A DNA stretch of 64,000 nt from Plazaster borealis. Its lineage: Eukaryota; Echinodermata; Asteroidea; Forcipulatida; Labidiasteridae. This document shows positions 10,907 through 49,200 of this stretch, piece by piece; the first letter of the stretch is position 1; every line of letters begins with the position of its first letter. The notes under the pieces were generated by a model. It was not told where the DNA came from. It worked only from the letters and a program-made list of their open reading frames with translations, and ran no database searches. The stretch is from contig CM037462.1 of the NCBI GenBank assembly GCA_021014325.1, positions 5,736,318 to 5,800,317 on the forward strand, given 5' to 3'. The translations under genes were made by a program, and so were the position numbers.

Positions 10907-10974
10907 TTTACTCGAATTTAAGGACAAAATCTGCTAAAACTACGTCAAGACGTACACCGGTAATGAAAATAAAA

Positions 10975-13309: not shown

Positions 13310-14380
13310 ATGTATTATGTGTTTCTGGATGAGGGGGGGGGGGGGGGGTCACAAACATTATCTATTTACTTTGAGGACGGAGTATGTGCAGTGAATATTT
13401 GCCGTATGTATTTTATGTATTTCTGGATGTCAGGATGGGGGGGGGGGGTGGTTCAAAAACATTATTTTTTTAGTTTGAGGACTGAGTATGTGCAGTGAAT
13501 ACTTGCCGTATTGTATTTTATGTATTTCTGGATGCCAGGATGGGGGGGGGGGGGGGGGGCACACAAACATTATTTAATTGGAGGACTGAGTATGTGCAGT
13601 GAAAACCGGCCGTATTATATTTTATGTATTTCTGGATGTCAGGATGGGGGGGGGGGCTCACAAACATTATTTGATTACTTTGAGCACCGAGTGTGTGCAC
13701 AAAATACTTGCCGTATTGTATTTTAGCTATTTATGTATTTCTGGATGTCAGGATGGGGGGGGGGGGGGGGAGTTCACCAATTTGATTTGTTTACTTTGAG
13801 CACCGAGTGTGTGCACTAAATACTTGCCAGATTGTATTTTATTTATTTATGTATTTCTGGATTGGGGGTGGGGGGGGGGGGTTCAAAAACATTATTTACT
13901 TTTAGCACCGAGTGTGTGCACTGAATACCTGCTGTATTGTATTTGATGTATTTCTGGATGTCAGGATGGGGGGGGGGGTTCGCACACATTAACTTTGAGC
14001 ACAGTGTGTGTGCACTGAATAGTTGCTGTATTGTATTTTATTTATTTATGTATTTCTGGATGACAGGGGGGGTCACCAATTTTATTTGTTTACTTTGAGC
14101 ACCGAGTGTGTGCACTGAATACTTGCCAGATTGTATTTTATTTATTTATGTATTTCTGGATGACAGGGGGGGGGGGGTCGCCAATTTTATTTACTTTGAG
14201 CACCGAGTGTGTGGACTGCATACATGCCGTATTGTATTTTATTTATTTATGTATTTCTGGATGACAGGGTGGGAGGGGGTGGGCTCACCAAATTTATTTG
14301 TTTACTTTGAGCACAAAGTGTGTGCACGAAATACTTTCCGTGTTGTATTTTATTTATTTGTGTATTTCTGGATACTCCAC
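13310..14380. repeat. Tandem array, about 105-base unit with a poly-G tract in each copy
   Basis: About 11 copies, each marked by GTATTTCTGGATGTCAGGAT followed by a run of up to about 18 G, then a TACTTTGAGCACCGAGTGTG region. Copies lie roughly 83-119 bases apart. Open frames on both strands here (13310-13800, 14108-14386) are translations of the repeat. The G runs could form quadruplexes. Confidence 0.93.
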
Positions 14381-15400: not shown

Positions 15401-16803
15401 TTGTAGGATTCACTAATTCACTCCTCTACTATACCCACAGTCCACTGATACGCTCTAGAACACAGGGCACTTGACACACAATGGGCAGTCCACTCAGGGT
15501 GCACCCCACTAAATAGGGAGAAAACAGAGTGTCGGCCTCATTAATATTTTGAAGGCCCTCAAAATATTCTGTATTTGACAGATTTGAGAGCCAAATAACA
15601 ATCGTACAGTGTAACAATTTTTCCCAATTGTGACCTGGGGGTTGTTGACTTCCAATTTGAAGTATTTCGCATGACATAGGCCCTGAAAAAATGGTCCTAT
15701 TTGCCGAGAGGTGTTTAGGAACATTTTTCAAGATTGATGCTCTAGAAGTTTGGAAAATAACATTGGTGTAGGGGTGTTTTTATTTAAATGGAGAATAACT
15801 CGCCGGGCCATTGGCACTCTCCATATCAAATTGAGCAGAGGATAAAGGTTCAAGAGTCAAACAATGGATAATTTTACATTTACTGTAAAAAGCTGTGAGA
15901 CTATATTTGTTTAAGTATTTTTGAATATTTATCATTTTGCACTGATTGGAGTTATTTAGTGGGATGCACCCCTCAATGCCTATGAGCTCACCAATCATCC
16001 CAGTTCTCCTTTCATAAGAACCAATTAAAGCAGTGCTGACTCTTCACCGAACCTCTGAATCCTTATAAAAAGTATCATTCAATTTGAGGCAATGTACACA
16101 TCTCTAACAGATATATATAAAAAAAAGGTTGTTTACTTTAAAGGTATGTTGTTTATTAAATTATTAATTTACTGAATCAGTTAACAACGCACACAAAATC
16201 ATTTACGAATGTTTTCAACGTCCACCAGCATGCAGCGATGAGCTAGCTATCAACAACCGTTTAATTCAAATATTGTACATACATGTATCTATACGTAGAG
16301 AACGTATGTGTACTTCGTGGTTTGCAAAATGATTTGCAGAAAGCTTCGAGTCTAATGAGATTATTCTGAACGTAGGTGGCGCGTTGGTGGCGTTACCCTT
16401 GCGCCCCTACTGACCGATAGGTGACCACTGGCTGAATTATGTGCACACCCCAAGTGTAGCTCGAGCTAATATGGCATTTGTCCAGGTTAGGCTGCAATCG
16501 GCGAAAGAATGTGGGAGAAGACGCATTTTGTAAATATTCATAACATGACCACCATTGACCACCAGTTGACCATTGGCCACAATTTATGACAATTTTAGAT
16601 AGGGCAAGTGTCAAGGTTTTATTTGACAAAGTTTTGTAAAAATTGGCAGAACAGTTTTGGAGTTATATCCTTTTGCATTTTGATCACGTGGCCATTTGAC
16701 CAAAGAAATAAAGAATTAAAGAAAGAACAAGAGCTAAAGTGCTCCACAAACCACAAATATCAGACCTTATTTTTCCATAATATGACCACTGCTGACCGAT
16801 TTT

Positions 16804-17100
16804 TAGGTGTTCGGCCAACAGCCGAAAACATATTGTTGTTGTACTTTGTAGGTGTTTGTGCAGTATGTGCACGAACACCTCTTGTTTTTGTTGTTTTTTG
16901 TTCTTCTTCAGAATCTTCTTTTTCCACGGAACTCTTCCCTGCAGCAGAGGCCAATATTAAAGTCACCTGGGAATTATATATATATATATATATATACATT
17001 TTTTTCTTCAGAAGAGTATTTGTATATTAACAATAAAACAATTTTTTGAGTAATTGTTTGTCACGATTTATATGTTTAAAAAATAGATGAAGTTGTTTTT
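16804..17100. repeat. Fragment of the 1.7 kb repeat family (left end)
   Basis: AGGTGTTTGTGCAGTATGTG and GCACGAACACCTCTTGTTTT match the hairpin module repeated three times at 25942-26095, the left edge of the large array. A (TA)n tract lies at about 16975-16996. Confidence 0.7.
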
Positions 17101-18539: not shown

Positions 18540-20216
18540 ATAAACAAAAACATATCTGGAGAACCATATGAAAACCATGACGTATTGTACGAACCTCACA
18601 CAAAGTCTAACTCCATATGACATTTACTTCTGGTTGAAACCGGAAGTTGAAGCTAGTTAAAATGAACATTTCTGGGCCTTGTTTTGAGGTCTTCAAACAA
18701 TATGATGTGGAATTTGGACATGGTCTCTGTAAATTAAATAAAGTTTGAACCTGGGTCTTCCAAATAAAGTAGTTATTATTTTAACAGTGCCCTCTCGTGA
18801 CAAGGTATTAAAAAGGAATAATTTTCTTGCTGAGAAGCTGTTGCAAGTTCAACAAAGTTTTAAACTGAGCACAAACTTATAAATTTCAATGTCTGGATAA
18901 GAAATGAGCTATTTGACCTTGACTTCCGGTGCAATCCGGAAGTTGAAGTTTAATATTTGAAACAATCATAACTCCTGAACCAAGCGTTGAATTTTTACAA
19001 TCCATACACCATCTGAAAGGTCTTTACAAAGCAAACAAACGCTACACAAAATGTGAACCCGTTTCACCTTGACTTCCAAATTCACCTGGAGTTTTACCGT
19101 TGAAAAAGTTAGTAACAACTTAACAAACGCTATACAGAGTGTTACTTCAGTTTACCTTGAAGTCCGGTTCAAAACGGAAGTTGATGTTTAAAATTTGAAA
19201 AAGATCATAACTCCTGAACCAAACATTGGATGTTTACAATCTGTACATTATTGGTAAGGTCCTTGACAACTTAACGAACCCTTCACAAAAAGTTAATTTC
19301 AAATACTCTTCTTCATAATTTTTTTTTTTTTTTTTTTTTACCACGGAACTTGTCTTTACAGCATAACTCAAGATTGAAACTGAATTGAACCTTGAAACTC
19401 ATCAGACAATTGAACCTCATTATGAAGACGGCACAGTTTTCATGACGTCATCAGTAGTTGATTTCAAAGGTGTTTAAAGTCGAAAAAATACCAATTGCTA
19501 TTCGCTGTAGTTCATTGAATTTGAAAGCTATGATGTTCATACTTTGACTTCGGATAGATGTGAAACATTTGAAAAGTTGACGCCAAAATCGTCCGACCTT
19601 TACTTAGGATTGTACAGGAAGGTCAACGTTTGCCCTTTTCCCCCTTGAACATCATTTTCGGGGCATAGCTCAAGATTGAAATTTGAACATTGAAACTGGA
19701 AGGTCAAAGTTTCTTAAACAATAATTTTCCGGGCATAATTTAAGATTGAAATTGAATTGAACATTGAAACTCATCAGACAATTGAACCTCAATATCAAGA
19801 CGACACAAACTTGATGATGTCATAGTGATGTCATAAGGTAGGCCTATATATTTACATTAAACCAAAGTTTAATGTTTGAAAAATATCAAAACTCATGAAC
19901 CACATGTTGGATTTTTAACCCATACATCATCGGAAAGGTCGTTTAAAGTTCAAGAAACGCTACACGGAACGTGACTCCATTTGACCTTCCGGTTAAAATC
20001 AAAAGTTGAACATTTCATATTCATTTCTCAAGAACCACTGATCATTTCAGCATAATGTTTGCATCAGGTTTTACACCTTTTTAGCCTGCTCCAACTTTTT
20101 CACAGAGATGACAACATTTCGATCTTTACACCTGGTCAAAACCGGACGTTGTACACACATACACTGTACTGTGTACGTGTACATTTGCATTGTACGTGTA
20201 GTTTAGTTTACATGTA
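18540..20216. repeat. Dispersed copy of the 1.7 kb repeat family, diverged
   Basis: Several diverged monomers of the family are visible: CATAACTCCTGAACCAA, TTTACAATC and CATACACCATCTGAAAGG, TTGACCTTGACTTCCGG, plus the CATAACTCAAGATTGAAA leader near 19360 and again near 19670, and TGATGTCATAGTGATGTC near 19813. It ends at the foldback element at 20217 and resumes at 35635. Confidence 0.8.
20163..20216. repeat. 54-base exact direct repeat, left copy
   Basis: The sequence from ACTGTACTGTGTACGTGT to GTTTAGTTTACATGTA is identical to 35635-35688. The two copies bracket the foldback element plus the second Harbinger element. Confidence 0.92.
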
Positions 20217-21496
20217 CACTGTTAAAAATGTCCGTAAATTTACGGACTCCGTAAAGTGAAATACTCCGTATTTTCGCCGTAATTTTACGGACTTTCCGTA
20301 AATGTAAATATTAATTATGCTAATAAGCGTAATTACAATCAACCACATTTTCCCAAACACCTATATACACATAATATAGTACATGTAAGTACATACTGTT
20401 ATTTCACCCACAACCGTGTACACATGTACAAACTCATGTTAAGGGTTTTTTATTTTACGGAATTAAAAAACTTTTCCGGTAATAGACTGTGCAAGTCTCG
20501 TGCGTATTGGAACGAGAAAACACGTCAAACGAAGAACTTTCTTTTCCTAAAAATCAATTCTTTGTTTTAAATTATATATAATGACAAATTCTGAACAACA
20601 AAAATACTCATTACATTTTTATACAATCAGTTTTAGTTTTTGTAATAAATACACCAACAATGTGTTAATTATTATTGAAACAAAATTCAAACTCTGGGAC
20701 AAGGATGCTTATTTGATCTTAACTCTTCAGAAACCCCTTACGAGGATTCGCGAAGGTCACAAAGGCGTAAAATTAACGCTAGACGCAGTTTATAGAGGAC
20801 GCTGACGCCTCAACAACCACATACTGCAAAGAAAAGGTTTCCCGCTGCAATTACAGCATCTGGCGATTATCATCGCGCATCCAAAACAAGCGTTTACATA
20901 AGTTTTGTGATCGGAGGTGAGCACAAAATTCTTTGTTTTTGGCAGTAACCGGAAGCTGAGGTCAAGTTTAACTCTCGGGTTTTCTTTGTTTTATTGTTGA
21001 ATTGATTTTACTTTCATATTTTTTATAACTAAGTATTACATTCCCAACAACATATACATTATTCATGGTCATAAACCACGTTAAACTAAAATAATTGACA
21101 AAACAAAATCTTGCCCACGTAAATCTCCATATGGTTGGCCCCACAATGGTCCCGGAAGTTCAATATGCGCGAGACTTGCACAGTCTATAGAGCTGCAGGA
21201 ATACGGAACCATATTTTTGTTCTGGCAGCTCTATTACCGGAAAAGTTTTTTAGTTCCGTAAAATAAAAAAACCCTTAACATGAGTTTGTACATGTGCACA
21301 CGGTTGTGGGTGAAATAACAATATGTACTTACATGTACTATATTATGTGTAGGTGTTTGGGCAAATGTGGTTGATTGTAATTACGCTTATTAGCATAATT
21401 AACATTTACACTTACGGAAAGTCCGTAAAATTACGGCGAAAATACGGAATATTTCACTTTACGGAGTCCGTAAATTTACGGACATTTTTAACAGTG
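20217..21496. mobile_element. Foldback/MITE element, about 1.28 kb with about 280-base arms
   Basis: The ends are CACTGTTAAAAATGTCC and its inverse GGACATTTTTAACAGTG, with TA on both sides (20215-20216, 21497-21498). The arms run to about 20500 and from about 21215, rich in TCCGTAAATTTACGGA-type palindromes. The centre (about 20500-21210) has no convincing gene; the open frame 20581-20805 has no family features. A TA duplication is compatible with several cut-and-paste superfamilies, so I do not assign one. Confidence 0.85.
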
Positions 21497-22975
21497 TAGG
21501 GACCATTAGAAATGGTGCAGATACGCGATGCGTATGCGGATCTGAAAAAGTTGTGGATGACGTCACCATTCTGTGCGGTAAATTTTAACCAATTTTAACG
21601 CACTCGCACGGCGTTTCTGCATCGCACGTCAAAATGGTAAGTTCACGTATGAATTTTTCTCTATAAATTACGGCAAAAATAGTTATCTTATAAACTCCCA
21701 AGTTGCATAGATTTCAGGTATAGTGTGGAGACAATGCTAATGATGTCACAAAACAAAATAACAAGGATATGATGGATATTTTATTACATTATTGAACATA
21801 CACTGAAACTGTTTTCACAGGCTAAAAATCAGCGAAAGTTAGTGTTGTTTCAAGTTGCATCCTTATCGTGAAAAAAAATATTTGTATAGGCGGCCCCCTT
21901 TAACTGCTTCGCCGTGAACAATGACCAACTGGTTTACTGAGCAAAAAAACATATTTGAAGTAACTTTGTGTACTCATGGGATAAATTTCTTTTGTCAAAC
22001 AATGAGGGACTAAGCCAAATTAACTAGGCCTGGCCTCAGATTCATGCAGCTGTGGGCCAAGTCATGGTCAACGATTTTAAATGGAGACGGTAGGCCTAGA
22101 GTATGACGACTATGTATGTGTGTGTCGGTACATGATTCAGGATATAAAGTGCTGATAGGCCTACAGCTCGACTGTGAAGACAAGTCGACCTTTGGGACAG
22201 CCGGCCTCAAGACTTCTGGGAAAACAAAAAAACATGGTGGCCCCTATTTGTTACCCAAGATCGTCATGATGGTTGGTTGGGCATCGCCTGAATGCATTGG
22301 AGATGAGCAACATTTGGAAAGTCCACATTTCAACTTATTTCAGTGCACCCTTCAACATGTTTATAATTATGTTAATATGTTTCTTTGCAGGCTGATCTGA
22401 TGGGGTTAGGTAGAACCGTTTTCAGATTTAAAAAAATGAATGAAAACACAACTACTTAACCAAGTCGCCACCGACAACCCTGAGGGGATGGGATTTTCAG
22501 GCTAAGGATGGGATGGTCTTGTAGATAAAGGCTAAAGGCTAGTGGTTCAGAATGGCGATTGCTAACAACAAAATGTGCGAGGGAAAACGTTCGAGAGATG
22601 GTGCGGGAGTGGCACAAAAACCGAGCTAAAGTGGATAAAACGTATGTGTTTTCAAAGGTTTTGGCAGTGTTTGTCAATGTCTGAAAGTGGTTTTAAACCA
22701 ATAACCCTGTTTGCCTCAAAATGCTATGATTAGTTGACATTTTATTAACATTTAATTGACGTTTTCTTTTGTAATTTTGTTATGTTAATTTCCTTTTTTT
22801 AATTATTTGTTTGTATTTTCAAGTTTTGTTGGGAGAGTGACGGAATGTTTTACAAAAAAGAGAGTACAAGGAAGTATACAAGTCCAGTGCTGAATTTCCC
22901 ATCACTTTTTATATAAATGTTTATTTAAGAAGTACTAAAAGTACATTTCGAATCAACATTGATGTTCTAGTACAG

Positions 22976-24217
22976 GAACTGGTGCTAATGAGACAGAGGA
23001 TGATGCCTATCTACAGGAGATCTATGATCTGTGGAACACTCGCAAAGAACAGATACAGAAACAAAAAGATGACTCAAATCAAATGAAGGAGAAGAAGTCA
23101 AGGGAGTGCGGCCTTCAAGTGCGCCAAGCAGCCATGCAGGGCTTGAAAAGGGCTAAAGGTATATATTATAAAAACAAAAAAAAAAAAAGCTTTGGTTTAT
23201 CAACATTTGGAGGGGAGTGGGTATTGCTATGTTGTAGAAAAGACAACATTTACCCTTTATTGAGTAAAATAGGATTTTAATTTAGTTTATCATATTCTCA
23301 TTCAACTTGTGTCGAACAGAGTTGTGTGTATGAGGCCTTGCATCTGTTGATAAAGGAACAATGCTGATTGGAGATGTCTGTGTATTGGTAATTGTAGTAC
23401 ATTGTAAATCATTCACATCAACTCAAAAACCTTTTGAATTGAAAATGTTTTCCTACTTTATTTTCCAGCATGCGAAGTTGATCTATCGGATGAGGAAAGC
23501 CAAGAAAATCCTGAATTGTCTGTTCCTGGTAGGTTCTCCTTTAACAGTTTAGTAATGTTATTCTCCTACCATATTGAGCCAAATCTAATTTCTCCTGAAA
23601 GAGAAGCTGTGCACACAAAAACACAAAATTGACAAATTGCCTGGATTATATAATATGTGCCTTCAGAGCTTCGTTAAATTTCAGAGCACTTATTCATTCT
23701 TCATGCAGATGCTTTGAAGCCATCCTAACAGCGGACAGTAAAAGTGGAGTGTGCATTTTGTGTCTTTGAAGTAATAATGTTGATAATTTCTCATAATATA
23801 AACACCCAGAACATTCACTAGAAGCAGTGTTGCCTAAATTACTGATTTATGAACATGTTTCAAGCTTGATCGGTTAATTATCTTGCTCATCCTGACCAAT
23901 GTTGAGATCAGCAGTGTTTATGCATTATTTTATTGTATGAACATTAGTAGTTATGTCTCTAAAATTTTCGATTTACTTTAAACTTCTTTGTTTTTGTTTT
24001 CTCTTGTCTTTCTACAGTTAAGCGTCACCGCAAGCAGGTCGCAGTCTGGAGTTATTTGAAAGAAGTCAAGCAGTCAGAAAACAGCCTTAAAGAAAAAGAA
24101 TTTGAACTGCGTACTAAACAAATAGCAGTCGATGAAGAAAAGGTAAACATTGAGAAAGAGAGGCTAAGGCTACAGAGTGTGCAACAAGAGCAGCAAATGC
24201 ATGTGTTGAGGGATTAA
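22976..24217 (+). CDS. Harbinger-encoded Myb-like partner protein, C-terminal exons
   Basis: Three exons join in phase 1: 22976-23158, 23469-23528 and 24018-24217. Acceptors are TACAG, TCCAG and TACAG; donors are GTATAT and GTAGGT. The protein reads TGANETEDDAYLQEIYDL, then a Lys/Glu-rich helix ending GLKRAKACEVDLSDEE, then KRHRKQVAVWSYLKEVK and a long charged coiled coil ending MHVLRD and stop. This order (acidic patch, basic patch, coiled coil) is that of the C-terminal half of Myb/SANT-type partner proteins of Harbinger elements. The N-terminal DNA-binding exon should lie at 21640-22900; I could not define it. An exon-like segment at about 22548-22641 ends in GTATGT but its phase does not fit. 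Confidence 0.65.
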
Positions 24218-24665
24218 CAAAACGTATAATTTCCGTCCGTTGGATTCTTCATATCTCATATTCAGTGGCTGCTTGATATTATTGGCTTCAGTTCAGCAGG
24301 GCTTTGGCTAAAATTCAGCAGCAAGTATTGGGTAATGCTGTACACAAACAAAGAGGGTACATTATATGCAACTGAAAAAGCATCTATGCAGTCAATTTTG
24401 AACTTGGTGGACATTACACCTTATCCATTGCAGCTATATCAGATGAGCTTCTTAATTTAAATTCAGTAAAAACATTTTAAGAAAAAGCTCTACTCTATCT
24501 ATTGAAGCAGAGCAAAAGCACTGGCAGTGTCCTCTTAATAATTTGAAAGAACTGTTTTGTTATTGTCGGCTTTCAGAAATCAATTTCATTGACCACTCAC
24601 ACAAAACACCTTTGAGAATTGTTAAACCAGATTGTCAAATTGTATCTAGTTGATTTGTTTCTGTT

Positions 24666-25569
24666 TCATTCCTCATTCTGGACACATAGGTATTCCTCTA
24701 ACTGGGGAGGGTTTACGTTAAAATACTTGGAAACTTGGTTTTCATACAAACAAGTATTGCAGTTGGACATCAATGTTGCTACTTTATAATAAAGTGCAAT
24801 TGGTTGAAGATAGACCTTCATGTTTGGGGCATAGTTGACAAAGGCAAAATTTGATGAAACTTTGCCAAAGTTCCATTCTACAGAAATTCGGTGAGAGCTC
24901 ATGAGTGCATTAAAATACTTTTGGAAATCTGTCAGTCCAACACCTCTGAATGGAGTGATTAGATTTTTCTGTAAAGGGTATGCTTTGTCAGCATACAAAA
25001 CCAACGGTCTACCATCAGCACTGGTAAAATCTTCGATTTTCTGGAGTATGTTTGATTCCCTCAGTAATGTTCAGTCATGCCTACGCCCCTCCACAGGCCC
25101 ATACAAATTTCCTATCATGCCATTGGCAAATGTGAATGATTGGTACTTTAGGCCATGCACTTTATCCTTGCCATTATACAATTTTCGTTGATTATAGATG
25201 GGCCTAGCATTCGGGATAAGTGTTCCGTCCAGGAAACCATAGCAGTTATCAAGAGGGCATCATTTTGCATGCACTGCCTCGGCAAATATACGCAACTGAT
25301 CTTCCTGCAACCACGTTTGATCAAAAGTATCTAACAAATGACACCAATTACTGTTTACATTATAGATGTTTTCATTAAAAATGATGCCGATGTCTGTTGG
25401 ATGTCTTCCAAACTCGCGTACCATGTCTTGATACCTCTTGGGATAGTTGAGTCTACTTAACATAATGCAGAGTCCTTCCAGTCCACTCCATGTGGTGCCA
25501 TTACTTGCCTTCATTTTTTCAGGGAGCTTGAGACATCTTGCAAGTCTTGAAATATCACATTTTTGAAAT
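24666..25569 (-). pseudogene. Exon 2 of the second HARBI1-like transposase
   Basis: 904 bases carrying the whole nuclease domain. It ends PPQLEEYLCVQNEE and stop. TGA codons at 25260-25262 and 25071-25073 are the only interruptions. Confidence 0.88.
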
Positions 25570-25941
25570 CTAAAAGTGGAGCATCAAAACACAAAAATGA
25601 AAAAGCTCTTTATTCATGTATACAGTTGCATGCAAAATAATGTTCACTTTCCTACGATTGGCTTCTTACATCATAAACCTTTTTTATCTCCGCAGGTGAC
25701 CATTTGCTTGATGTTTTGTACCAAAAAACAAATATTTGTTGCATAAAAGTTGTTTATTGAAATAGATATTTATCAAAACTGAATTTAAAAGTACCCAGTC
25801 AGTTTCCCTTGTGGTTTATTGCTTAATATTAAGTTATTTATTAAAATTCCAAGTATATTGGACTTGATGTTTGGCTCGGTTTAGTAGGCCCAAAACCGTA
25901 GTAGCGGCTAACAAAGAGTTCACCAAATTAAATTACACATG

Positions 25942-26095
25942 TTTAGGTGTTCGTGCAATATGAGCACGAACACCTCTTGTTATTTTTCCGTTTTTAGGTG
26001 TTCGTGCAATATGAGCACGAACACCTCTTGTTATTGTTCCGTTTTTAGGTGTTCGTGCAATATGAGCACGAACACCTCTTGTTATTGTTCCGTTT
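25942..26095. repeat. Triple 51-base hairpin repeat at the array edge
   Basis: Three near-identical copies of TTTAGGTGTTCGTGCAATAT then GAGCACGAACACCTCTTG. Each copy is an inverted repeat of about 12 base pairs around a 5-7 base loop. The minus-strand open frame 25933-26151 is only its translation (RGVRAHIARTPKNG three times). Confidence 0.92.
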
Positions 26096-26096
26096 T

Positions 26097-29000
26097 TTTG
26101 TTTTTTTTTCTTCTCCATCTTCTTCTTCCCTAGAACTCTTCTCGACAGCATAACTCAACATTGAAACTGAATTGAACCTTGAAACTCATCAGACAATTGA
26201 ACCTCAATATGAGGACGGCACAATTGTCATGACGTCATAATGACGTCATCAGGTGTCGAATTACAACGTTTTTAAAGTTGAAAAATGACCATTTGGTATT
26301 TGCTGTATCTCATTGAATATGAAAGCTATGATGTTCATAATTGGGCATGTGATAGATCAAGACTGGGGCTACATTTCAAAAGTTAACGTCAAAATCGTAT
26401 GACCTTTTCTTCAAGGTCATGCCCTAGGTCAAAGTTTGCCTTTGGTTTTTTTCTTGAAAAACATCATTTTCGGGTTTATCTACGGCATAAATCAAGATTG
26501 AAATTGACTTTTACATTGAAACTCATCAGACATTTGAACCTAAATATCAAGACGACACAAACTTGATGATGTCATGATGACGTCATCAGGTATTGAATTA
26601 CATTAAATCAAAGTTTAATATTTGAAAAAAAATCATAACTCATGAACGACATGTTGGATTTTTACAATCTTTACATCATCGGAAAGTTCGTTAAAGGTCC
26701 AACAAACGCTACACAGAAAGTGACCCCATTTGACCTTGACTTCCGGTTCAACCTGGAAATTTAAAATTATATAAATTTCGTATCTCAAAAACTACTTATC
26801 ATTTCACTATAATTTCTGCATCAGGTTGTAGAACGTTGAGCCAGCTCAAACTTTTGCACAGAAATAACAACATTTTGATATTTACATCTTGTCTTATGAC
26901 CACCGGCATTAAAGCGCACGTTTGTGTTGACCCACTTTGATAACGCAAGATGGTGTAATAACACGTGTACAGATACACGTACATTGTGCGTGTAGTTCAG
27001 TTTACACCAACTACATGTAGGAATACATTAATTTAGCATCGCTGTTACCTTGTATATTGCGCACCCCGGCATGAAGATAATCCATGTAATACTTGAAAAA
27101 TTCGTAACTCCTGAACCACACATTGGATTTTTACAATCTATACATCATCTGAAAGGTCTTTGTAAAACCTAACGTACGCTACACTTATTGTGACCCCGTT
27201 TGACCCTGACTTCCGGTTCAAAGCGGAAGTTGAAATTTAATGTTTCAAAATTCATAATTCCTGAACCACAGGATGGATTTTTACAATCTATACACCATTG
27301 GACAAGTATGTAACAACTTAACAAACGATATACAGAATGTGACCCCAAGTGACCTTTACTTCCTGTTCAAACCGGAAGATGAAATTTAATATTTGAAAAA
27401 TCAGAACTCCTGAACCACACATTGGATTTTTATCATTTATACATCAGCAGAAAGGGCTCCAAAGATTTAAGAAACGCTACACACTGTGACCTCATTTGAC
27501 CTTGACTTCCGGTTCGAACCGGAAAGTAAAAGTTAATGTTTCAACAAATCGTTTGAGGTTTACAATCCATACATCATCTAAAACGTCTTCATAAACTAAA
27601 TGCGCTACACATAATGTGACCCCTATTTGACCTTGACTTCCGGTCCAAACCGGAAGTTGATGTTAATTTTTTAGAAAATTCATAACTCCTGGACCAGGCA
27701 TTGGATTGATAAGGTAGAATGTTTATTCATTCAATCACTCCCCACGAACACCTTGTTTTTGTCACATGACAAAAACTGAAAGTCTAGTTTTTTCTTCTCC
27801 ATCTTCTTCTTCTTCTTCTTCTTCTTCTTCCCTGGAACTCTTCTCTAGAACATAACTCAAGATTGAAACTGAATTGAACCTTGAAACTCATTAGACAATT
27901 GAACCTCAATATGAAGACGGCACCAACCTACTGACGTCATGATGACGTCATCAAGTGTCGAATTACAAGGGTTTTAAAGTTGAAAAATGACCATTTGTTA
28001 TTGGCTGTATCTCCTTGAATTTGAAAGCTGTGATGTTCATAATTGAGCATCGGACAGATCAAGGCTTGGGCAACATTTCAAAAGTTAACGCAAAATCGTA
28101 TGACCTTTGCTTCCGGTCGTACCGGAAGGTCAAAGTTTGCCTTTGTTTGTTTTTCTTTAAAAAATGAATTTCTGGGCATATCTCAAGATTAAAATTGAAT
28201 TGAACATTGAAACTCACCAGATAATTGGACCTCAATATCAAGACGACACAAACTTGATGATGTCATGATGACGTCATCAGGTATTGAATAACAATGAGTC
28301 AAAGTTTAATATTTGTAAACAAATCATAACTCTTGAACCACATATTGGATTTTTACAATCTATACATCATCGGATAGGTCGTTAAACGTTCAACAAACGC
28401 TACACAAAGTATGACCCCATTTGACCTTGACCTCCGGTTCAAACCGGAATTTGAAAAATTCACAAAATTCGTATCTCAAAATCTACTTATCACTTCAGCA
28501 TATTTTTTGCATCAGGTTGTAGAACGTTGAGCCTGCTCAAACTTTTGCACAGAAATAACAACATTTTGACATTTACATCTTGTCTTATAGCCACGGGCAT
28601 TAAAGCGCACGTTTGTGTTGACCCACTTAGATAGCGCGAGTTAGTGTAACACGTGTACAGATACATGTATATTTTACGTGTAGTTCAGTTTACATCAACT
28701 ACATGTAGGAATACATTTAGCATCGCTGCATGTTACATTGTATATTGCGCACCCCGGCATAAAGATAATCCATGTAATACTTGAAAAATTCGTAACTCCT
28801 GAGCCACACATTGGATTTTTACAATCTATACATCATCTGAAAGGTCTTTATAAAACCTATAATACGATACACTTATTGTGACCCCGTTTGACCCTGACTT
28901 CCGGTTCAAAGCGGAAGTTGAAATTTAATGTTTCAAAATTCATAATTCCTGAACCACGCAATGGATTTTTACAATCTATACATCATTGGACAACTTAACA

Positions 29001-32000
29001 AACGATATACAGAATGTGACCCCAATTGACCTTTACTTCCTGTTCAAACCGGAAGATGAAATTTAATATTTGAAAAAATCAGAACTCCTGAACCACACAT
29101 TGGATTTGTATCATCTATACATCATCAGAAAGGGCTCCAAAGATTTAAGAAAAGCTACACACTGTGACCTCATTTGACCTTGACTTCCGGTTCAAACCGG
29201 AAAGTGAAAGTTAATGTTTCAACAAATTGTTGGAGGTTTACAATCCATACACCATCTAAAACGTCTTCATAAACTAAACGCGCTACACAAAATGTGTCCC
29301 CTATTTGACCTTGACTTCCGGTCAAAACCGGAAGTTGATGTTAATTTTTTTTTGAAAAATTCATAACTCCTGAACCAGGAATTGGATTGATAAGGTATAA
29401 TGACCTATTCATTCAATCACTCACCACGAACACCGTGTTTTTGTAGTAAACAAAAATTCAATGACTAGTTTTTTTTTCTTCTCCATCTTCTTCTTCCCTG
29501 GAACTCTTCTCTAGAAGATAACTCAAGATTGAAATTGAATTGAACAATGAAACTCATCAGACAATTGAACCTCGATATGAAGACGGCACAAAGTTAATAA
29601 CGTCATGATGACGTCATCAGGTGTCGAATTACAAGGGTTTTAACTTGAAAAATGACCATATGGTATTTGCTGTATCTCATTGAATATGAAAGCTATGATG
29701 TTCATAATTCGGCATGTGATAGATCAAGACTAGGGCTACATTTCAAAAGTTAACGTCAAAATCGTATGACCTTTTCTTCGAGGTCATGCCCCCAGGTCGA
29801 AGTTTGCCTTTGGTTTTTTTCTTGAAAAACATCATTTTCGGGCTTATTTACGGCATAACTCAAGATTGAAATTGAATTTTACATTGAAACTCATAAGACA
29901 TTTGAACCTTAATATCAAGACGACACAAACTGGATGATGTCATGATGACGTCATCAGGTATTAAATTACAATGAATCAAAGTTTAATATTTGTAAACAAA
30001 TCATAACTCTTGAACCACATATTGGATTTTTACAATCTATACATCATCGGATAGGTCGTTAAACGATCAACAGAAGGTACACAAAGTATGACCCTGTTTG
30101 ACCTTGACTTCTGGTTCAAACCGGAAGTTGAAAATTTCACAAAATTCTTATCTCAAAAACCACGTATTTTTTTATCAAAGTTTTTGCATCAGGTGATAGA
30201 TGATTGAGCCTGCTCAAACTTTTGCACAGACATGACAACATTTTGACTTTTACATCTGGTCAAAACCGGACGTTAAAGCCAACGTTGGTTAAAGCGCACG
30301 TGTCTCTTGACGTGACTACGTTGACAACGCACGACGGCACAACAGTGTATTAACACATGTAGGCACTACGCACACACTGAACATGCACGTAGCACGTGAG
30401 CACGTGTAGTTAGTTTACATTGTGTATAGTCTTGGTTCCAAGACGCTCTGGTTGAAGACTAATGTATGTACTGTACAGCTACGTGTATGGATACATTTGG
30501 CGTGACTGTGCATATACAAAGAAACAACGAGCGAAAAATGCAATATTTGAAAATGTTGTAACTCTTGAACCACACATTGGATATTAACAATCCATACATC
30601 ATCTGAAAGGTCTTAATAAACCTAACACGCGCTACACAAAGTGTGACCCTGTTTGACCTTGAATTCCGGTTAAAACCGGAAGTTGAAATTTAATATTTAA
30701 AAATATCTTAACTTCTGAACAACTCATTCGATTTTTACAATCTATTCATCATTGGGAAAGTATGTAACAACTTTAGAAACGATATACAGAATGTAACCCC
30801 AATTGACCTTTACTTCCTGTTCAAACCGGAAGATAAAATTTAAAATTTGAAAAAATCAGAACTCCTGAACCACACATTGGATTTTTATTATCTATACATC
30901 ATCGGAAAGGGCTCCAAAGATTTAAGAAACGCTACACACTGTGACCTTATTTGATCTTGACTTCCGGTTCAAACCGGAATGTGAAAGTTAATGTTTCAAC
31001 AAATCGTAACTTCTAAACAACACATTGGATTTTTACAATCTATACATTATTGGTAAAGTATGTATCAATTTAAGAAAAAATACAAAATGTGACCTCATTT
31101 GACCTTGACTTCCTGTTCAAACCGGAAGATGAAATTTAATACTTGAAAAAATCATAACTTGTCGACACCAAATCATTCACTCATAATTTGATGACATTAC
31201 TCTCGAACACCTTGTTTTTGTAACCAACAAAAACTGAATCTCTAGTGTTCTGTTTTTTTTCGTCTCCATCTTCTTCTTCTTCTTCTTCCCTAGAGCTCTT
31301 CTCTAGAGCATAACTCAAGATTGAAATTGAATTGAACATTGAAACTCATCAGACAATTGAACCTCAATATGAAGACGGCACAGTTTTCATGACGTCATGA
31401 TGACGTCATCAGGTGTCGAATTACAACGTTTTTAAAGTTGAAAAATGACCATTTGGTATTTGCTGTATCTCATTGAATATGAAAGCTATGATGTTCATAA
31501 TTGGGCATGTGATAGATCAAGACTGGGGCTATATTTCAAAAGTTAACGTCAAAATCGTATGACTTTTTCTTCGAGGTCATGCCCCCAGGTCGAAGTTTGC
31601 CTTTGTTTTTTTTTCTTGAAAAACATCATTTTCGGGCTTATTTACGGCATAACTCAAGATTGAAATTGAATTTTACATTGAAACTCATAAGACAATTGAA
31701 CCTAAATATCAAGACGACACAAACTTGCTGATGTCATGATGACGTCATCAGATATTGAATTACATCAAATCAAAGTTTAATATTTGAAATAAAATCATAA
31801 CCCATGAACGACATGTTGGATTTTTACAATCTATACATCATCGGAAAGTTCGTTTTAACAGTTCAACAAACGCTACACAGAAAGTGACCCCATTTGACCT
31901 TGACTTCCGGTTCAACCCGGAAATTTAAAATTTCACAAAAGTCGTATCTCAAAAACTACTTGTCATTTCAGCATAAATTTTGCATCAGGTTGTAGAACAT

Positions 32001-34640
32001 TGAGCCTGCTCAAACTTTTGCACAGAAATAACAACATTTTGACATTCACATCTTGTCTTATAACCACCGGCATTAAAGCGCACGTTTGTGTTGACCCACT
32101 TTGATAACGCGGGATAGTGTACTAGAACGTGTACAGACACATGTATATTGAACGTGTAGTTCAGATAACATCAACTACATGTAGGAATACATTTAGCATC
32201 GCTGCATGTTACCTTGTTTATTGCGCACCACGGCATAAAGATAATCCGTCTAATACTTGAAAAATTCGTAACTCCTGAACCACATATTGGATTTTTACAA
32301 TCTGTACATCATCTGAAAGGTCTTTATAAAACCTAACATACGCTACACTAATTGTGACCCCGTTTGACCTTGACTTCCGGTTCAAAGCGAAAGTTTAAAT
32401 TTAATGTTTCAAAATTCATAATTCCTGAACCACACATTGGATTTTTACAATCTATACGTCATTGGAAAGTTCGCTAAAAGTTCAACAAACGCTACACAAA
32501 AAGTGACGTCATTTGACCTTGACTTCCGGTTCAAACCGGAAGATAAAATTGTATATTTGAAAAATACAGAACTCCTGAACCACACATTGGATTTTTATCA
32601 TCTATACATCATCAGAAAGGGCTCCAAAGATTTAAGAAACGCTACACACTGTGACCTCATTTGACCTTGACTTCTGGTTCAAACCAGAAATTGAAAGTTA
32701 ATGTTTCAACAAATCGTTGGAGGTTTACAATCCATACAATCATCTAAATCATCTTCATAAACTAAACGCGCTACACAAAATGTGACCCCTATTTGACCTT
32801 GACTTCCGGTCCAAACCGGAAGTTGATGTCAATTTTTTTGAAAAATTCATAACTCCTGGACCAAGCATTGGATTGATAAGGTAGAATGTTTATTCATTCA
32901 ATCACTCCCCACGAACACCTTGTTTTTGTCACATGACAAAAACTCAATGACTAGTTTTTTTTTCTTCTCCATCTTCTTCTTCCCTAGAACTCTTCTCTAC
33001 AGCATAACTCAACATTGAAACTGAATTGAACCTTGAAACTCATCAGACAATTGAACCTCAATATGAGGACGGCACAATTGTCATGACGTCATGATGACGT
33101 AATCAGGTGTCGAATTACAACGTTTTTAAAGTTGAAAAATGACCATTTGGTATTTGCTGTATCTCATTGAATATGAAAGCTATGATGTTCATAATTGGGC
33201 ATGTGATAGATCAAGACTGGGGCTACATTTCAAAAGTTAACGTCAAAATCGTATGACCTTTTCTTCAAGGTCATGCCCTAGGTCAAAGTTTGCCTTTGTT
33301 TTTTTTCTTGAAAAACATCATTTTCGGGCTTATCTACGACATAACTCAAGATTGAAATTGAATTTTACATTGAAACTCATCAGACATTTGAACCTAAATA
33401 TCAAGACGACACAAACTTGATGATGTCATGATGACGTCATCAGGTATTGAATTACATTAAATCAAAGTTTAATATTTGAAAAAAAATCATAACTCATGAA
33501 CGACGTGTTGGATTTTTACAATCTATACATCATCGGAAAGTTCGTTAAAGGTCCAACAAACGCTACACAAAAAGTGCCCCATTTGACCTTGACTTCCGGT
33601 TCAACCCGGAAATTTAAAATTATATAAATTTCGTATCTCAAAAACTACTTATCATTTCAGCATAATTTCTGCATCAGGTTGTAGAATGTTGAGCCAGCTC
33701 AAACTTTTGCACAGAAATAACAACATTTTGACATTTACATCTTGTCTTATGACCACCGGCATTAAAACGCACGTTTGTGTTGACCCAATTTGATAACGCA
33801 AGATGGTGTAATAACACGTGTACAGATACACGTACATTGTGCGTGTAGTTCAGTTTACATCAACTACATGTAGGAATACATTAAATAGCATCGCTGTTAC
33901 CTTGTATATTGCGCACCCCGGCATGAAGATAATCCATGTAATACTTGAAAAATTCGTAACTCCTGAACCACACATTGGATTTTTACAATCTATACATCAT
34001 CTGAAAGGTCTTTGTAAAACCTAACATACGCTGTACTCTGTGACCCCGTTTGACCCTGACTTCCGGTTCAAAGCGGAAGTTGAAATTTAATGTTTCAAAA
34101 TTCATAATTCCTGAACCACACGATGGATTTTTACAATCTATACACCATCGGACAAGTATGTAACAACTTAACAAACGATATACAGAATGTGACCCCAAGT
34201 GACCTTTACTTTCTGTTCAAACCGGAAGATGAAATTTAATATTTGAAAAAATCAGAACTCCTGAACCACACATTGGATTTTTATCATCTATACATCATCA
34301 GAAAGGGCTCCAAAGATTTAAGAAACGCTACACACTGTGACCTCATTTGACCTTGACTTCCGGTTCGAACCGGAAAGTAAAAGTTAATGTTTCAACAAAT
34401 CGTTTGAGGTTTACAATCCATACATCATCTAAAACGTCTTCATAAACTAAATGCGCTACACATAATGTGACCCCTATTTGACCTTGACTTCCGGTCCAAA
34501 CCGGAAGTTGATGTTAAATTTTTAGAAAAATTCATAACTCCTGGACCAGGCATTGGATTGATAAGGTAGAATGTTTATTCATTCAATCACTCCCCACGAA
34601 CACCTTGTTTTTGTCACATGACAAAAACTGAAAGTCTAGT
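26097..34640. repeat. Five tandem copies of a 1.7 kb repeat unit
   Basis: Unit starts lie near 26100, 27790, 29470, 31255 and 32955, each at CTTCTCCATCTTCTTCTTC followed by CATAACTCAA(G/C)ATTGAAA. Spacing is about 1680-1785 bases. Each unit has the same internal order: leader, two segments with GATGACGTCATCAGG, then six or so monomers of about 150-175 bases containing CCTGAACCACACATTGGAT, ACATCATC, ACGCTACACA and TTGACCTTGACTTCCGG, and a tail with CCCACGAACACCTTGTTTTT. No coding frame is conserved between units; minus-strand frames at 26799 and 33652 are translations of the repeat. Confidence 0.93.
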
Positions 34641-35024
34641 TTTCTTTTCTTTTAGGATTGAAGCTTTTTTTTACTGCATCATTACCAATTATGTTAAATG
34701 ATGTTGCAGGATTGAGGGGAACACCTAGATTCGGAGCAAGAATTTGGAGGATTGAAGTAACATCCTAAATGTCTTATCTAGGAGAATTGAGGTCAACCCT
34801 AAATCCTTGACGACTTACGAATACAACACCTGGCTTTTGAAAATTGAAGGGGCATTCTATGATCCATAAAGCCAACTAGGCGGTCTTGTTGGCTACTCGG
34901 TCTCAAAAAATCTAGTAAGAGGATGCACACAAGAGGAATGAGAATGCTGTTGGATGATTCTGAAGAAATGAGGAGGCATCCTAAGGGCTTGGGCTTGCAC
35001 TTTCAATTTGTCTAATGAAATTAC
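34640..35024. other. Transposase intron sequence outside the array
   Basis: After the array's last CTGAAAGTCTAG the sequence changes to non-repetitive AT-rich DNA up to the exon 1 donor at 35024. I see no exon in it. Confidence 0.6.
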
Positions 35025-35212
35025 CTGAAGCGACTTCTGCATTCTTGCTCAGAGAGTCTCTCAATGTCAATTCTGGTATACTTCAGATGTTCCCCATTGT
35101 TGAAGGTTGGAAACCTCTCTTTTTGTTGATCCTCAAGCAGGAGTAAGGCTGCCTCGACTTCAGAAGAGTCCAGAAACAACAATGCCAATGGATCGATAGT
35201 ATTATAAGCCAT
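35025..35212 (-). CDS. Exon 1 of the second HARBI1-like transposase
   Basis: 188 bases, ATG at 35212. It encodes MAYNTIDPLALLFLDSS through EQECRSRF and ends in phase 2 at CAG|GTAATT. Its last codon is completed by the first base of the exon at 25569. Confidence 0.85.
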
Positions 35213-35634
35213 ATCTATGAATGAGACACAAAAATGTATGTCACTGGGTTCTGTTTGGAACAAAACATTTATTGTAAAAGTATCTTTGCATAAAGAACAC
35301 ATAATAGGAACTGGTTAACTTTTCCCACAACCCCTGAACTATTATAAAAGCATCATGTCAGTAAATGTTTGGTCAGAGCAGTAGCCTAAAAAACACCACA
35401 ATCTGTTCTATCCTTACCTGTGATCTTCACAAACAGTCGTTTGTTTTACTGATAGCAACCGCCATACAAAGTGTGCATCATCAGCATGAGGAAAATCAGA
35501 AGACCATCGTCTCAGTACGTTCGTCACAAAATCTAATCCTCTCAGCAACGTACGCACGTACGCGATACGCAAACGCCGCGTGCGTCACGTACGCGCACGC
35601 GCATCCCGCACCTGCACCATTTCTAATGGTCCCT

Positions 35635-35688
35635 ACTGTACTGTGTACGTGTACATTTGCATTGTACGTGTAGTTTAGTTTACATGTA
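35635..35688. repeat. 54-base exact direct repeat, right copy
   Basis: Identical to 20163-20216. It starts next to the right end of the second Harbinger element. Confidence 0.92.
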
Positions 35689-36000
35689 AATTTACTGTAC
35701 ATCTACATGTACAAATACAGCATCGCTGTTACATTAAATCTTGCCGACCAAAAGATAATCCATCTCAAATTTGAAAAATTCATAAATCGTGAAACACACA
35801 TTGGATTTTTACAATCATTACGTAATCTGAAAGGTACAAACGCTACTCAAAATGTGATCCCGTTTGACCTTGACTTACGGTTAAAACTTGAACCACAATT
35901 TTTTTTTTTTACAATATACATCATTGGGTAAGTATCTTAAAAAAAGCTACACAACATTTGACGCCCATTTGACCTCGGCTTTCGATTGAAGTTGAAGTTC
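35689..36000. repeat. Continuation of the 1.7 kb repeat family up to the assembly gap
   Basis: GCATCGCTGTTAC, CACACATTGGATTTTTACAA and GTTTGACCTTGACTTACGG are diverged words of the same family, which continues what was interrupted at 20216. Confidence 0.75.
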
Positions 36001-36500
36001 NNNNNNNNNNNNNNNNNNNNNNNNNNNNNNNNNNNNNNNNNNNNNNNNNNNNNNNNNNNNNNNNNNNNNNNNNNNNNNNNNNNNNNNNNNNNNNNNNNNN
36101 NNNNNNNNNNNNNNNNNNNNNNNNNNNNNNNNNNNNNNNNNNNNNNNNNNNNNNNNNNNNNNNNNNNNNNNNNNNNNNNNNNNNNNNNNNNNNNNNNNNN
36201 NNNNNNNNNNNNNNNNNNNNNNNNNNNNNNNNNNNNNNNNNNNNNNNNNNNNNNNNNNNNNNNNNNNNNNNNNNNNNNNNNNNNNNNNNNNNNNNNNNNN
36301 NNNNNNNNNNNNNNNNNNNNNNNNNNNNNNNNNNNNNNNNNNNNNNNNNNNNNNNNNNNNNNNNNNNNNNNNNNNNNNNNNNNNNNNNNNNNNNNNNNNN
36401 NNNNNNNNNNNNNNNNNNNNNNNNNNNNNNNNNNNNNNNNNNNNNNNNNNNNNNNNNNNNNNNNNNNNNNNNNNNNNNNNNNNNNNNNNNNNNNNNNNNN
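36001..36500. other. Assembly gap of exactly 500 N
   Basis: A run of 500 N, a round number that suggests a scaffold gap of unknown true size. It directly borders the repeat family, a likely cause of assembly failure. Open frames drawn across it are meaningless. Confidence 1.
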
Positions 36501-46200: not shown

Positions 46201-49200
46201 AACATCTGAGCTATTTGCATCGCTGCCAGCGTAGAGGGCGACTGATGAAATATCAGTCGCGATTCTGGCATGACCGCAGCTGGACGTCCTGTAGATCCGT
46301 CGCAGTGTGAAACAATTCAGAACCGCGGGAATTTAGTATTGTTGTGCGGTTAGCCTGACTCAACAGTTGGTAAGAGTATCGTTTGGTATTTTGAGCTCAC
46401 AACCTATGAACTGAGAGGTGTATTTGTATACTTTTATTTTACTGTACCCTAAGTTGTGAGAAAGTGTCGCACACGGAATACATAGTTGTAGGCTATTATT
46501 ATTGCTCACGGCGGCAGGGTGGACCGCAGAGAAATTTCAAGTGCGTGCCAAGTATTACCAACTCCTGTTTTGTTGTCTAGATTTTGGGTTTAAGGTTCGA
46601 TATTCTACTGCATGTATTTTGTCAGTATAAATGTTGCAGTGGCAACCCCAGGGTGCAGGTTGCGGGAGCCATACTCGTCATACCCGAGTGATCGCGGTTA
46701 AAAGGCCTAAAAGCCCGGCTTTCAATTATTCTAAAGGACTTTCGGCCTCTAGCTTTCTTAAAGAATGTAGAGGCCTACTCGCAGTTGTGCAACCCCGTTA
46801 TGAAACCGTATAGGCCTTGCATTTTGTCCTTGGTACAATTCTCGTGTCGACTTGGGCATTTTTAAACCTAGGCTAGCTCAAAACGCAAATTTCATCCATG
46901 ATGAGGGACCAAAATGCAATCATAGAAGGGCATGAACGGGTTTACGGCGCCGTTGGAAATCGTCCTCAAAGATTTTCCGGGGCCTCTGCACTACATACAA
47001 TATTTCCAAAACAGCAGATGCTTTGAAAGCTTAATAGAAGATGGATGGGATGATCCAACACAGTTTAAAGACATGCATGCGGAGTGGGGAAACCACGTGT
47101 TGCCCTCAGCTCCGAACGGGGGTCAAAAAAGAAATCTGGAGGTGATACTGCTAAGAGTTGATGCTGGCCCCCTAGATAATATAAAATTACCCGTTTAATG
47201 TTGTACCTGATGAGCGGATAGCCGTAGGTTGCTCAAATGGAAGAATTGTTAAATATTTTGCAAAGGTCATAAAACATATGCCAAGGTTTAATGTTGTACC
47301 TGCCGAGCGGATGGCTCAAGGTTGCAAAAATGAAAGAATGTTGGAATAATTTGCAAAGGTCATACAAATGACAATGTTTAATTTTGTACTTGCCGAGCGA
47401 ATGGCTCAAGGTTGCTGAAATGTAAGAAGTTTTGAATAATTTGCAAAGGTCCAAAGAAATTACAATGTTCAATGTTGTACCTGCCGAGCGAATGGCTCAA
47501 GGTTGATTAAATGTAAGAATGTTTGAATAATTTGCAAAGGTCAAAAACAAAAACTAAAAGACAATGTTCAATGCTGTGCCTGCTGAGCGTTTGGCTCAAG
47601 GTTGCTCAAATGTAAGAAGTTTTGAATAATTTGCAAAGCTCAAAAGAAATGACAATGTTCAATGTTGTACCTGCCGAGCGAATGGCTCAAGGTTGATTAA
47701 ATGTAAGAATGTTTGAATAATTTGCAAAGGTCAAAAAAAAAAAAAAAAAAAAGACAATGTTCAATGCTGTGCCCGCTGAGCGTTTGGCTCAAGGTTGCTC
47801 AAATGTAAGAAGTTTTGAATAATTTGCAAAGCTCAAAAGAAATGACAATGTTCAATGCTGTACCCGCCGAGCGGATGGCTCAAGGTCGCAAAGATGAAAG
47901 AATGTTTGAATAATTTGCAAAGGTCATAAAAATGGCAATGTTAAATGTTGTACCTGCCGAGCGAATGGCTCAAGGTTGCTCAAATGTAAGAAGTTTTGAA
48001 TAATTAGCAAAGGTCATAAGAAATGACAATGTTCAATGGTGTACCTGTCGAGCGGATGGCTCAAGGTAGCAAATATGCAAGAATGTTTGAATAATTTGAA
48101 AAAGTCATACAAATAGACAATGTTTAATGGCTCAAGGCTGCTCAAATGCAAGATTGTTCGAATAGTTTGCAACGGTCATACAAAATGACAATTTTAAAAG
48201 TTGTACCTGACGAGCGGATGGCTCAAGGTTGCCGGGGCTATAGATCCCCGAGATCGTGAGATGATTTGGCCTCACGCAGAAAGTGAGATGTTATGCCTCA
48301 CATACAGAGTATTTTAACCTGGGTGCGGCCCCGAGATCGTGAGATGATTTGGCCTCATGCAGAAAGTGAGATGTTTTGGCCTCACATACAGAGAGTTTTA
48401 ACCAAATTGGGGCTATAGATCCCCGAGATCGTGAGATGATTTGGCCTCACGCAGAAAGTCAGATATCTGGCCTCACATACAGAGTATATTACCCGGGGTG
48501 CGGCCCTGAGATCGTGAGATGATTTGGCCTCACGCAGAAAGTGAGATGTTTGGTCTCACATACAGAGAGTTTTAACCAAATGGGGGCTATAGATCCCCGA
48601 GATCGTGAGATGATTTGGCCTCACGCAGAAAGTCAGATGTTTGGTCTCATATACAGAGTATATTAACCGGGGTGCGGCCCCGAGATCGTGAGATGATTTG
48701 GCCTCACGCAGAAAGTGAGATGTTTGGTCTCATATACAGAGTATTATTAACCGGGGTGAGGCCCTGAGGTTGTGAGAAGATTTGGCCTCACGAAGGGACA
48801 AGGACATTGTTTTATAAACCGGGGATAGGTCCAGAGAGTGTAAGAGTGCTCAAGTGCAAGATTGTTTGAATAGTTTGCAAAGGTCATAAACAATGACAAT
48901 GTTTAAAGTTGTACCCGATGAGCAGCGTTTGGCTCAAGGATGCTCAAAGGCAAGAATGTTTGAAAAGTTTGCAAAGGTCATAAGAAATGACAGTGTCAAT
49001 GTTGCACCTGCCGAGCGGATGGCCCAAGGTTGCTCAATGTAAGAAGTTTGAATAATTTGCAAAGGTCATAAGAAATGACAATGTTCAATGCTGTACCTGC
49101 CGAGCGGATGGCTCAAGGTAGCAAAAGTGAAAGAATGTTTGAATAATTTGCAAAGGTCATACAAAATGACAATGTTTAATGTTGTATCTGCCGAGCGAAT

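Follow-up and report, generated by a model that had tools for sequence, protein, structure and literature searches.

The 64,000-nucleotide stretch of the Plazaster borealis genome analyzed here (the window; positions 5,736,318 to 5,800,317 of contig CM037462.1, or C8:5736318-5800317) contains a Harbinger-type DNA transposon whose transposase intron is largely filled by a tandem array of units of about 1.7 kb, and the whole lies within an older copy of the array's own repeat family. An earlier note on this DNA had recognized that arrangement, in which a Harbinger-type element with a large intron array has entered a repeat of the array's family, and in this respect it stands; its treatment of the array as a satellite of the Harbinger element, or one carried by it, finds no support. 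Judged by its sequence, the array is a separate transposon family with the features of HINEs (non-autonomous Helentrons), and the 1.7-kb satellite unit corresponds to the body plus the 3′ end of a mobile element about 1.74 kb long.

The Harbinger-type element is bounded by perfect inverted ends of 22 bp, one base longer than first noted, in which positions 21499-21520 on the plus strand equal the reverse complement of 35612-35633, the right terminal repeat on the minus strand. The match reaches 43 bp at 88% identity once the flanking GTA and TAC are counted in. These immediate flanks have only TA in common, so this copy shows no visible 3-bp target duplication. The transposase is encoded on the minus strand in two exons: exon 1 (35027-35212) reads from an ATG, and exon 2 (24663-25569) holds the DDE domain. 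Between them lies an intron of 9,457 bp (25570-35026) with GT and AG splice sites, the donor being AG/GTAATT at 35026 and the acceptor TTTTAG/ATTTC at 25570 (slashes mark the splice points), and the frame is restored across the joint as RSRFRF/QKCDI. The proposed in-frame joint is thus borne out, and relatives that reach exon 1 align through it, with the exception of P0001. In that relative the residues preceding RFRK are unlike exon 1, as if the gene caller had read intron there; if this is a true sign of an intron at the same position, the intron would be common to a relative. Exon 2 contains two in-frame stops and no frameshift, and its read-through matches the DDE_Tnp_4 profile above the cut-off (E = 2.8e-19). 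The window copy is presumably inactive. Among the 13 relatives aligned, of 21 found, Asp177, Asp257, and Glu294 are invariant, and we take these to be the D, D, and E residues of the transposase; relatives with names come from Lytechinus (45% identity), Antedon (42%), and Actinostola (45%). Remnant exons of a second open reading frame (ORF) lie at 22963-24217 on the plus strand, and a comparison of these exons with Pfam gave no family above the cut-off.

The array occupies 25942-34639 on the plus strand and consists of stacked 5′ hairpins, a leader, and five bodies that each carry a 3′ end; its limits are set by an empty site elsewhere in the genome and by the ends of many other copies (see below). 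It opens with three 51-bp modules (25942-26097), absent from the earlier description, in which the subterminal repeat AGGTGTTCGTG forms part of a hairpin with a perfect 12-bp stem (AGGTGTTCGTGC-aatatga-GCACGAACACCT; z = -7.4) followed by a T-rich leader, and TT stands before the 5′ hairpins. The reading of this opening segment (25.94-26.10 kb) as an independent minisatellite was rejected, as it is a 5′ end that occurs at many places with a body behind it. Then follow unit 1 (26098-27787), unit 2 (27788-29468), unit 3 (29469-31245), unit 4 (31246-32954), and unit 5 (32955-34639), all on the plus strand; the five copies and the non-coding character reported previously were both recovered, the longest stop-to-stop ORF being 80 amino acids. 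Every unit terminates in CGAACACC, a TTTTTGT/ACAAAAA hairpin, and CTAG. The 3′ stem measures 7-9 bp in all five, with three loop types (ACAT, AGTAA, and AACCA), and CTAG is followed directly by TT in four of the five units and by TGTTCTG and a T-run in unit 3. The terminal 3′ end (34595-34639, plus strand) comprises the subterminal repeat CACGAACACCT, the hairpin, and CTAG, and is followed by TTTT. At each of the four inner junctions CTAG is succeeded by a leftover piece of the T-rich leader, without a hairpin, and the next body starts behind it. The subterminal inverted repeats AGGTGTTCGTG and CACGAACACCT match exactly over 11 bp. Matches of this length turned up in 3 of 5,000 dinucleotide shuffles, and 17 of 20,000 pairs of stretches drawn at random from the window (pairs within repeats included) also attained it. 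Repeats of about 150 bp lie inside the units, and these monomers cluster mostly by their position in the unit, which indicates that the composite unit is older than the array.

These features correspond closely to those of HINEs. The available sections of a published description (Thomas et al. 2014, PMC4067079) list palindromic subterminal repeats that lie some nucleotides inside the 5′ end and roughly 38-60 bp from the 3′ end, with a palindrome near the latter; inverted subterminal repeats of 12-15 bp in the mite, where the families have them palindromic, with 11 bp as the family criterion; T-rich targets flanked by TT without target duplication; central repeats; and no encoded protein. Sea urchin and mollusc members are mentioned. 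The window array likewise has subterminal repeats of at least 11 bp, a 5′ palindrome and a 3′ stem-loop, a T-rich target, and a non-coding interior with central repeats. It differs from the HINE/DINE-1 elements described in those sections in stacking several 5′ hairpins and in repeating the body with its 3′ end up to five times. Its terminal CTAG also departs from them and agrees with the 3′-CTRR form given for Helitron1 in the part of PMC5148889 consulted.

The exact 23-mer of the Harbinger end (flanking A included) occurs at four places in the 560.6-Mb assembly, corresponding to two element copies; this search covered exact ends. The second copy (L005, C10:8139075-8145611) has the same exons, and over the 5,392 bases that align with the window copy in four main segments taken together it differs by 116 substitutions (2.15%), with 98.9% identity over the exon 1 stretch. 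Segments that the array holds apart in the window adjoin one another in the C10 copy, where the exons lie 764 bp apart. Its empty site reads AAATTACACA-TTTTTTT-CTTTTCTTTTAGG, and the window equivalent is ...ACACATGTTT/array/TTTTCTTTTCTTTTAGG; relative to the run of seven T's, the inserted length is 8,695-8,698 bp. The array is therefore no part of the Harbinger family as such. The inspection of other copies of the inverted ends proposed in the earlier note has accordingly returned a copy without the array, close to what the note had itself named as counting against its reading. Exon 2 of the C10 copy has only the terminal stop and an open frame. Its intron keeps the donor GT, and direct reading gives AT where the window acceptor has AG, so that splicing of this copy is in doubt despite the open frame; a literal search of the C10 copy for the window splice-site strings found none. 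The C10 copy also carries about 373 bp and, in the second-ORF region, about 755 bp that are missing from the window copy. By eye, the extra 373 bp ends in tRNA-like sequence, and the C10 flanks sit in a short tandem repeat and are compatible with a 3- or 5-bp duplication.

The family is dispersed well beyond this locus. A query with unit 5 gave at least 104 matches (26 of 3,330 candidates scored), at least 32 of them outside the window at full length and 98-99% identity, several within the same arrays, and a query with the 5′ module gave at least 112 (40 of 1,273 candidates scored). Four loci (L008, L009, L012, and L015) are single complete elements with one hairpin and one body, and about 1.5 kb on either side of each is without family similarity. 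The flanks of 12 loci were checked in all: no family DNA was present at six, namely these four, L010 (two hairpins), and L013 (three hairpins), and family DNA lay on one or both sides at the other six (L014, L016, L017, L018, L028, and L033). TT precedes all 42 distinct leftmost 5′ ends recognized in the fetched loci, follows 38 of 42 distinct 3′ ends, a set that takes in those of the window, and stands ahead of the next 5′ end at 103 of 106 junctions between stacked hairpins. In the window itself, an independent copy of the 5′ module lies outside the Harbinger element at 16800-16961 on the plus strand (74.9% over 175 columns, E = 1.5e-26). At L054, a 3′ end with CTAG and TT is followed at once by another 5′ hairpin, an apparent head-to-tail pair of whole elements. 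Pattern scans of IMG/VR, in which little eukaryotic DNA is expected, gave no match for the repeat, the hairpin, or the Harbinger ends.

The array units differ pairwise by 2-18%. Units 1 and 5 are 98.2% identical, and the other pairs are about 8-18% different with 8-20 gap events. Comparison with copies on other contigs yields a different pattern of relatedness: unit 1 reaches 98.5% identity to such copies and unit 5 reaches 99.0%, and unit 3, a distinct subfamily, is 95.7% identical to a body on C18 versus about 82% to its array neighbors. The best outside identities of units 2 and 4 (89.8% and 92.6%) are much like those within the array. The within-array identities leave gaps out and the outside identities count them, a mismatch that biases the comparison against the conclusion of mixed origin and not toward it, and the loci compared were fetched mostly by unit 5 and the 5′ module, so that closer relatives may be missed. 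The differences among units and their outside matches indicate that the array was put together from different family members and not amplified from one. An ordinary satellite array was rejected, as units 1, 3, and 5 resemble copies on other contigs no less, or even more, than they do their neighbors.

The layout seen in the window, in which hairpins stand to the left of bodies that carry 3′ ends, recurs at other loci, and three of these are self-nested. On C14 the leftmost module breaks off behind CTTGTT, and its complementary half opens the last young body as CTAG/TTATTGTTCCG, with TT common to both halves. On C302 a complete young element lies within the first bases of another unit (CATCTT/T-AGGTG...CTAG/TCTTCTTC), and both interrupted halves flank it. 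On C18 two hairpins of differing leader type are followed by a young body, a body of the unit 3 type, and finally 373 bp that show no similarity to the family. Hairpin/leader types number two or more in 35 of the 41 fetched loci that have at least two hairpins (some loci overlap), and there are 71 distinct tails among 102 junctions. The anatomy of these three loci, the mixed hairpin types, and the varied tails together indicate that new copies insert at TT in a resident leader.

We consider it very probable that the locus is a stack of transposons and that its family's tandem arrays arise mainly by self-nesting. The Harbinger element, with a neighboring palindromic miniature inverted-repeat transposable element (MITE), would have lodged in an old copy of the HINE-like family, and a younger array of the same family would later have landed in a T-run of the transposase intron. 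The family probably moves by a rolling-circle route using a Helentron enzyme. The element inserts between T's, and its own leader, behind the 5′ hairpin, is a long T-run, so that further copies could enter a resident leader; each such self-insertion would add a 5′ hairpin to the left side of the locus and a body with its 3′ end to the right side. The numbers of hairpins and units would change afterwards through unequal exchange or through transposition that starts at the leftmost 5′ end and stops at the first 3′ end. The growth steps of the window array are likewise a reconstruction, and its surplus units would call for something further, for instance unequal exchange or a loss of hairpins.

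Several observations weigh against this account. Hairpin and unit numbers are often unequal, being 3 and 5 in the window, 6 and 4 on C3, 4 and 5 on C14, 3 and 4 on C389, and 25 and 3 on C20, with 3 and 2 on C5 and 4 and 2 on C6 in possibly incomplete pieces; these counts use strong 3′-end matches and exclude weak ones that fall on hairpins. Numbers agree on C18 (2 and 2) and in single copies, and a simple rule that hairpins equal units fails on the counts. The truncated hairpin predicted by the junction remnant of unit 4 (TGTTCTG...) is missing in the window, and the window's three hairpins match one another at 99%, a near-identity more suggestive of duplication than of three independent arrivals. 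The recurrence of one module tail at 12 loci suggests that a stack of hairpins may also move as a group. Taken singly, the 3′ hairpins are modest (z from -1.9 to -2.4, with 3 to 13 of 200 shuffles folding equally well), and 4 of the 42 distinct 3′ ends are without a following TT. On C14, a distance of 109 bp separates the last young unit from older relatives (about 70-83% identity) farther on, and the array there is therefore not closed by clean host DNA. Lastly, copy number is known from the assembly only. The C20 locus, C20:8000843-8013700 (L065/L066), holds 25 5′ hairpins of several types, 23 of them clustered, and three recognized 3′ ends in the 12.9 kb seen.

An alternative origin for the tandem units is a rolling-circle multimer, in which all five would have been made at once by replication past the 3′ end of a circular intermediate, initiated in the internal T-run instead of at the 5′ end, and the resulting concatemer would then have been inserted. 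The head-to-tail order of the units and the restriction of the 5′ end to the first of them in the window are consistent with such an event, the array at 6.04 Mb on C3, whose four units are all 98-99% identical to unit 5, would fit it, and tandem truncated Helitron arrays of plants are attributed to replication of this kind in the available part of PMC12628747. A single circle should yield near-identical units, however, and those of the window are up to 18% apart with unit 3 from another subfamily; the plant arrays have the mirror-image structure; and the complementary halves on C14 and C302 need insertion. We regard a multimer as unlikely.

The same divergence bears on local expansion, one of the two courses offered by the earlier note, by which a single unit would have landed in the intron and been amplified as a satellite through unequal crossing-over or slippage. 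Tandem head-to-tail units, the close resemblance of units 1 and 5, and the near-identical 51-bp modules are what such amplification would leave. Yet the two Harbinger copies are only about 2% apart, against about 8-18% for every unit pair except 1-5, and units 1 and 5 have counterparts on other contigs at least as close to them as they are to each other, with unit 3 far nearer its C18 relative than its neighbors. Expansion after landing is contradicted as the sole origin of the array, for which it is very unlikely, and is possible as a modifier of copy number. The last alternative, that the Harbinger element carries the array as cargo and spreads it, draws on the enclosure of the array by perfect terminal repeats, on splice sites that are intact on paper, and on satellite arrays reported within a CACTA element (PMC8978399, in the part consulted), but it is rejected on the empty site in the only other exact-ends copy found, on the dispersal of the array family at many places, and on the two stops in the window transposase, and retains hardly any probability.

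The self-nesting account places the Harbinger element in an older family copy, and the repeat previously reported outside both of its ends proved to be one such interrupted stretch, 73-78% identical to the array units. Its left part (18563-20216, plus strand) hosts the MITE and Harbinger insertions, and its right part (35635-36000, plus strand) ends at a gap. Positions 36001-36500 are a run of exactly 500 N inside this outer repeat, probably a scaffold gap, which leaves the far end of the right-hand part unreadable. The palindromic MITE-like element (20217-21496) has ends CACTGTTAAAA...TTTTAACAGTG, arms of about 270 bp, and TA flanks, and abuts the left end of the Harbinger element. A perfect 54-bp direct repeat (20163-20216 and 35635-35688) flanks the MITE and Harbinger elements together, about one base from each outer end. 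Alignment scores for one and for two copies of this segment are about equal against units 1 (147 and 142), 2 (148 and 149), 4 (147 and 144.5), and 5 (148 and 146.5), and two copies are favored against unit 3 (82.5 and 107.5). As the HINE-like family is abundant, nesting in both directions needs no special link between it and the Harbinger element. Elsewhere in the window, a second, different DDE_Tnp_4 transposase lies at 8332-10933 on the minus strand, its domain split between 10148-10933 (profile positions 1-111) and 8332-8676 (111-158) with about 1.5 kb between. Other tandem arrays occupy 13315-14373 (period about 104 bp), 47193-50008 (about 91/181, with a stretch of 83/174), and 55107-55560 (about 71/143).

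Several components of this picture have precedents, as far as the accessible parts of the sources go: Helitron self-insertion, satellites borne by HINEs, and DNA transposons with satellite arrays are already described (PMC5148889, PMC7492417, PMC12628747, and PMC8978399). Cg_HINE of the Pacific oyster similarly has satellite-like repeats between conserved end modules, T-rich insertion sites with TT, and a dispersed distribution, and in the sections consulted its arrays are made of short monomers, whereas the repeat unit in the window is the whole 1.7-kb element (PMC7492417). FoHeli of Fusarium oxysporum shares multiple 5′ termini, for which nested self-insertion was proposed as the origin, and its authors further proposed that chimeras are re-mobilized, or excised, as the segment running from the leftmost 5′ end as far as the first 3′ end, in keeping with the joint movement of stacked hairpins suggested here; the portion of that report at hand describes several 5′ ends together with only one 3′ end, and a single case of nesting, and the animal family also repeats its 3′ end and displays left and right halves that match (PMC5148889). 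The centromeric Helitron arrays of plants (Xiong et al., summarized in PMC12628747, seen in part) are also tandem partial rolling-circle elements, but many have several 5′ ends and one 3′ end, and the window repeats the body and 3′ end. The Harbinger-type element resembles the PIF/Harbinger superfamily, as outlined in the sections of PMC9179366 consulted, in its DDE transposase, terminal inverted repeats, and second ORF, and differs in its perfect ends of 22 bp versus the usual 25-50 bp, the lack of a clear 3-bp target duplication, and a second ORF without a recognized Myb domain. A satellite-like HINE array in a Harbinger intron was not seen in the portions of the open-licence full texts consulted.

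As a finding about Harbinger elements, the locus is a case of ordinary nesting; its interest lies in the view it affords of how a dispersed "satellite" can arise. What is added here is an animal family with visible matching halves and a clean empty site, by which a satellite in a transposase intron becomes a testable account of rolling-circle elements turning into tandem arrays. The chances are about even that self-targeting by this single Helentron family drives the formation of dispersed satellites in this genome as a general process, in which the element's own T-run would make each insertion improve the target, and the order of 5′ hairpins on the left would mirror the order of bodies on the right, so that the order of insertion could be read. 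Because cut points on the left can be matched with remnants on the right, array histories may be checked genome-wide, which would separate self-insertion, multimers, and unequal exchange.

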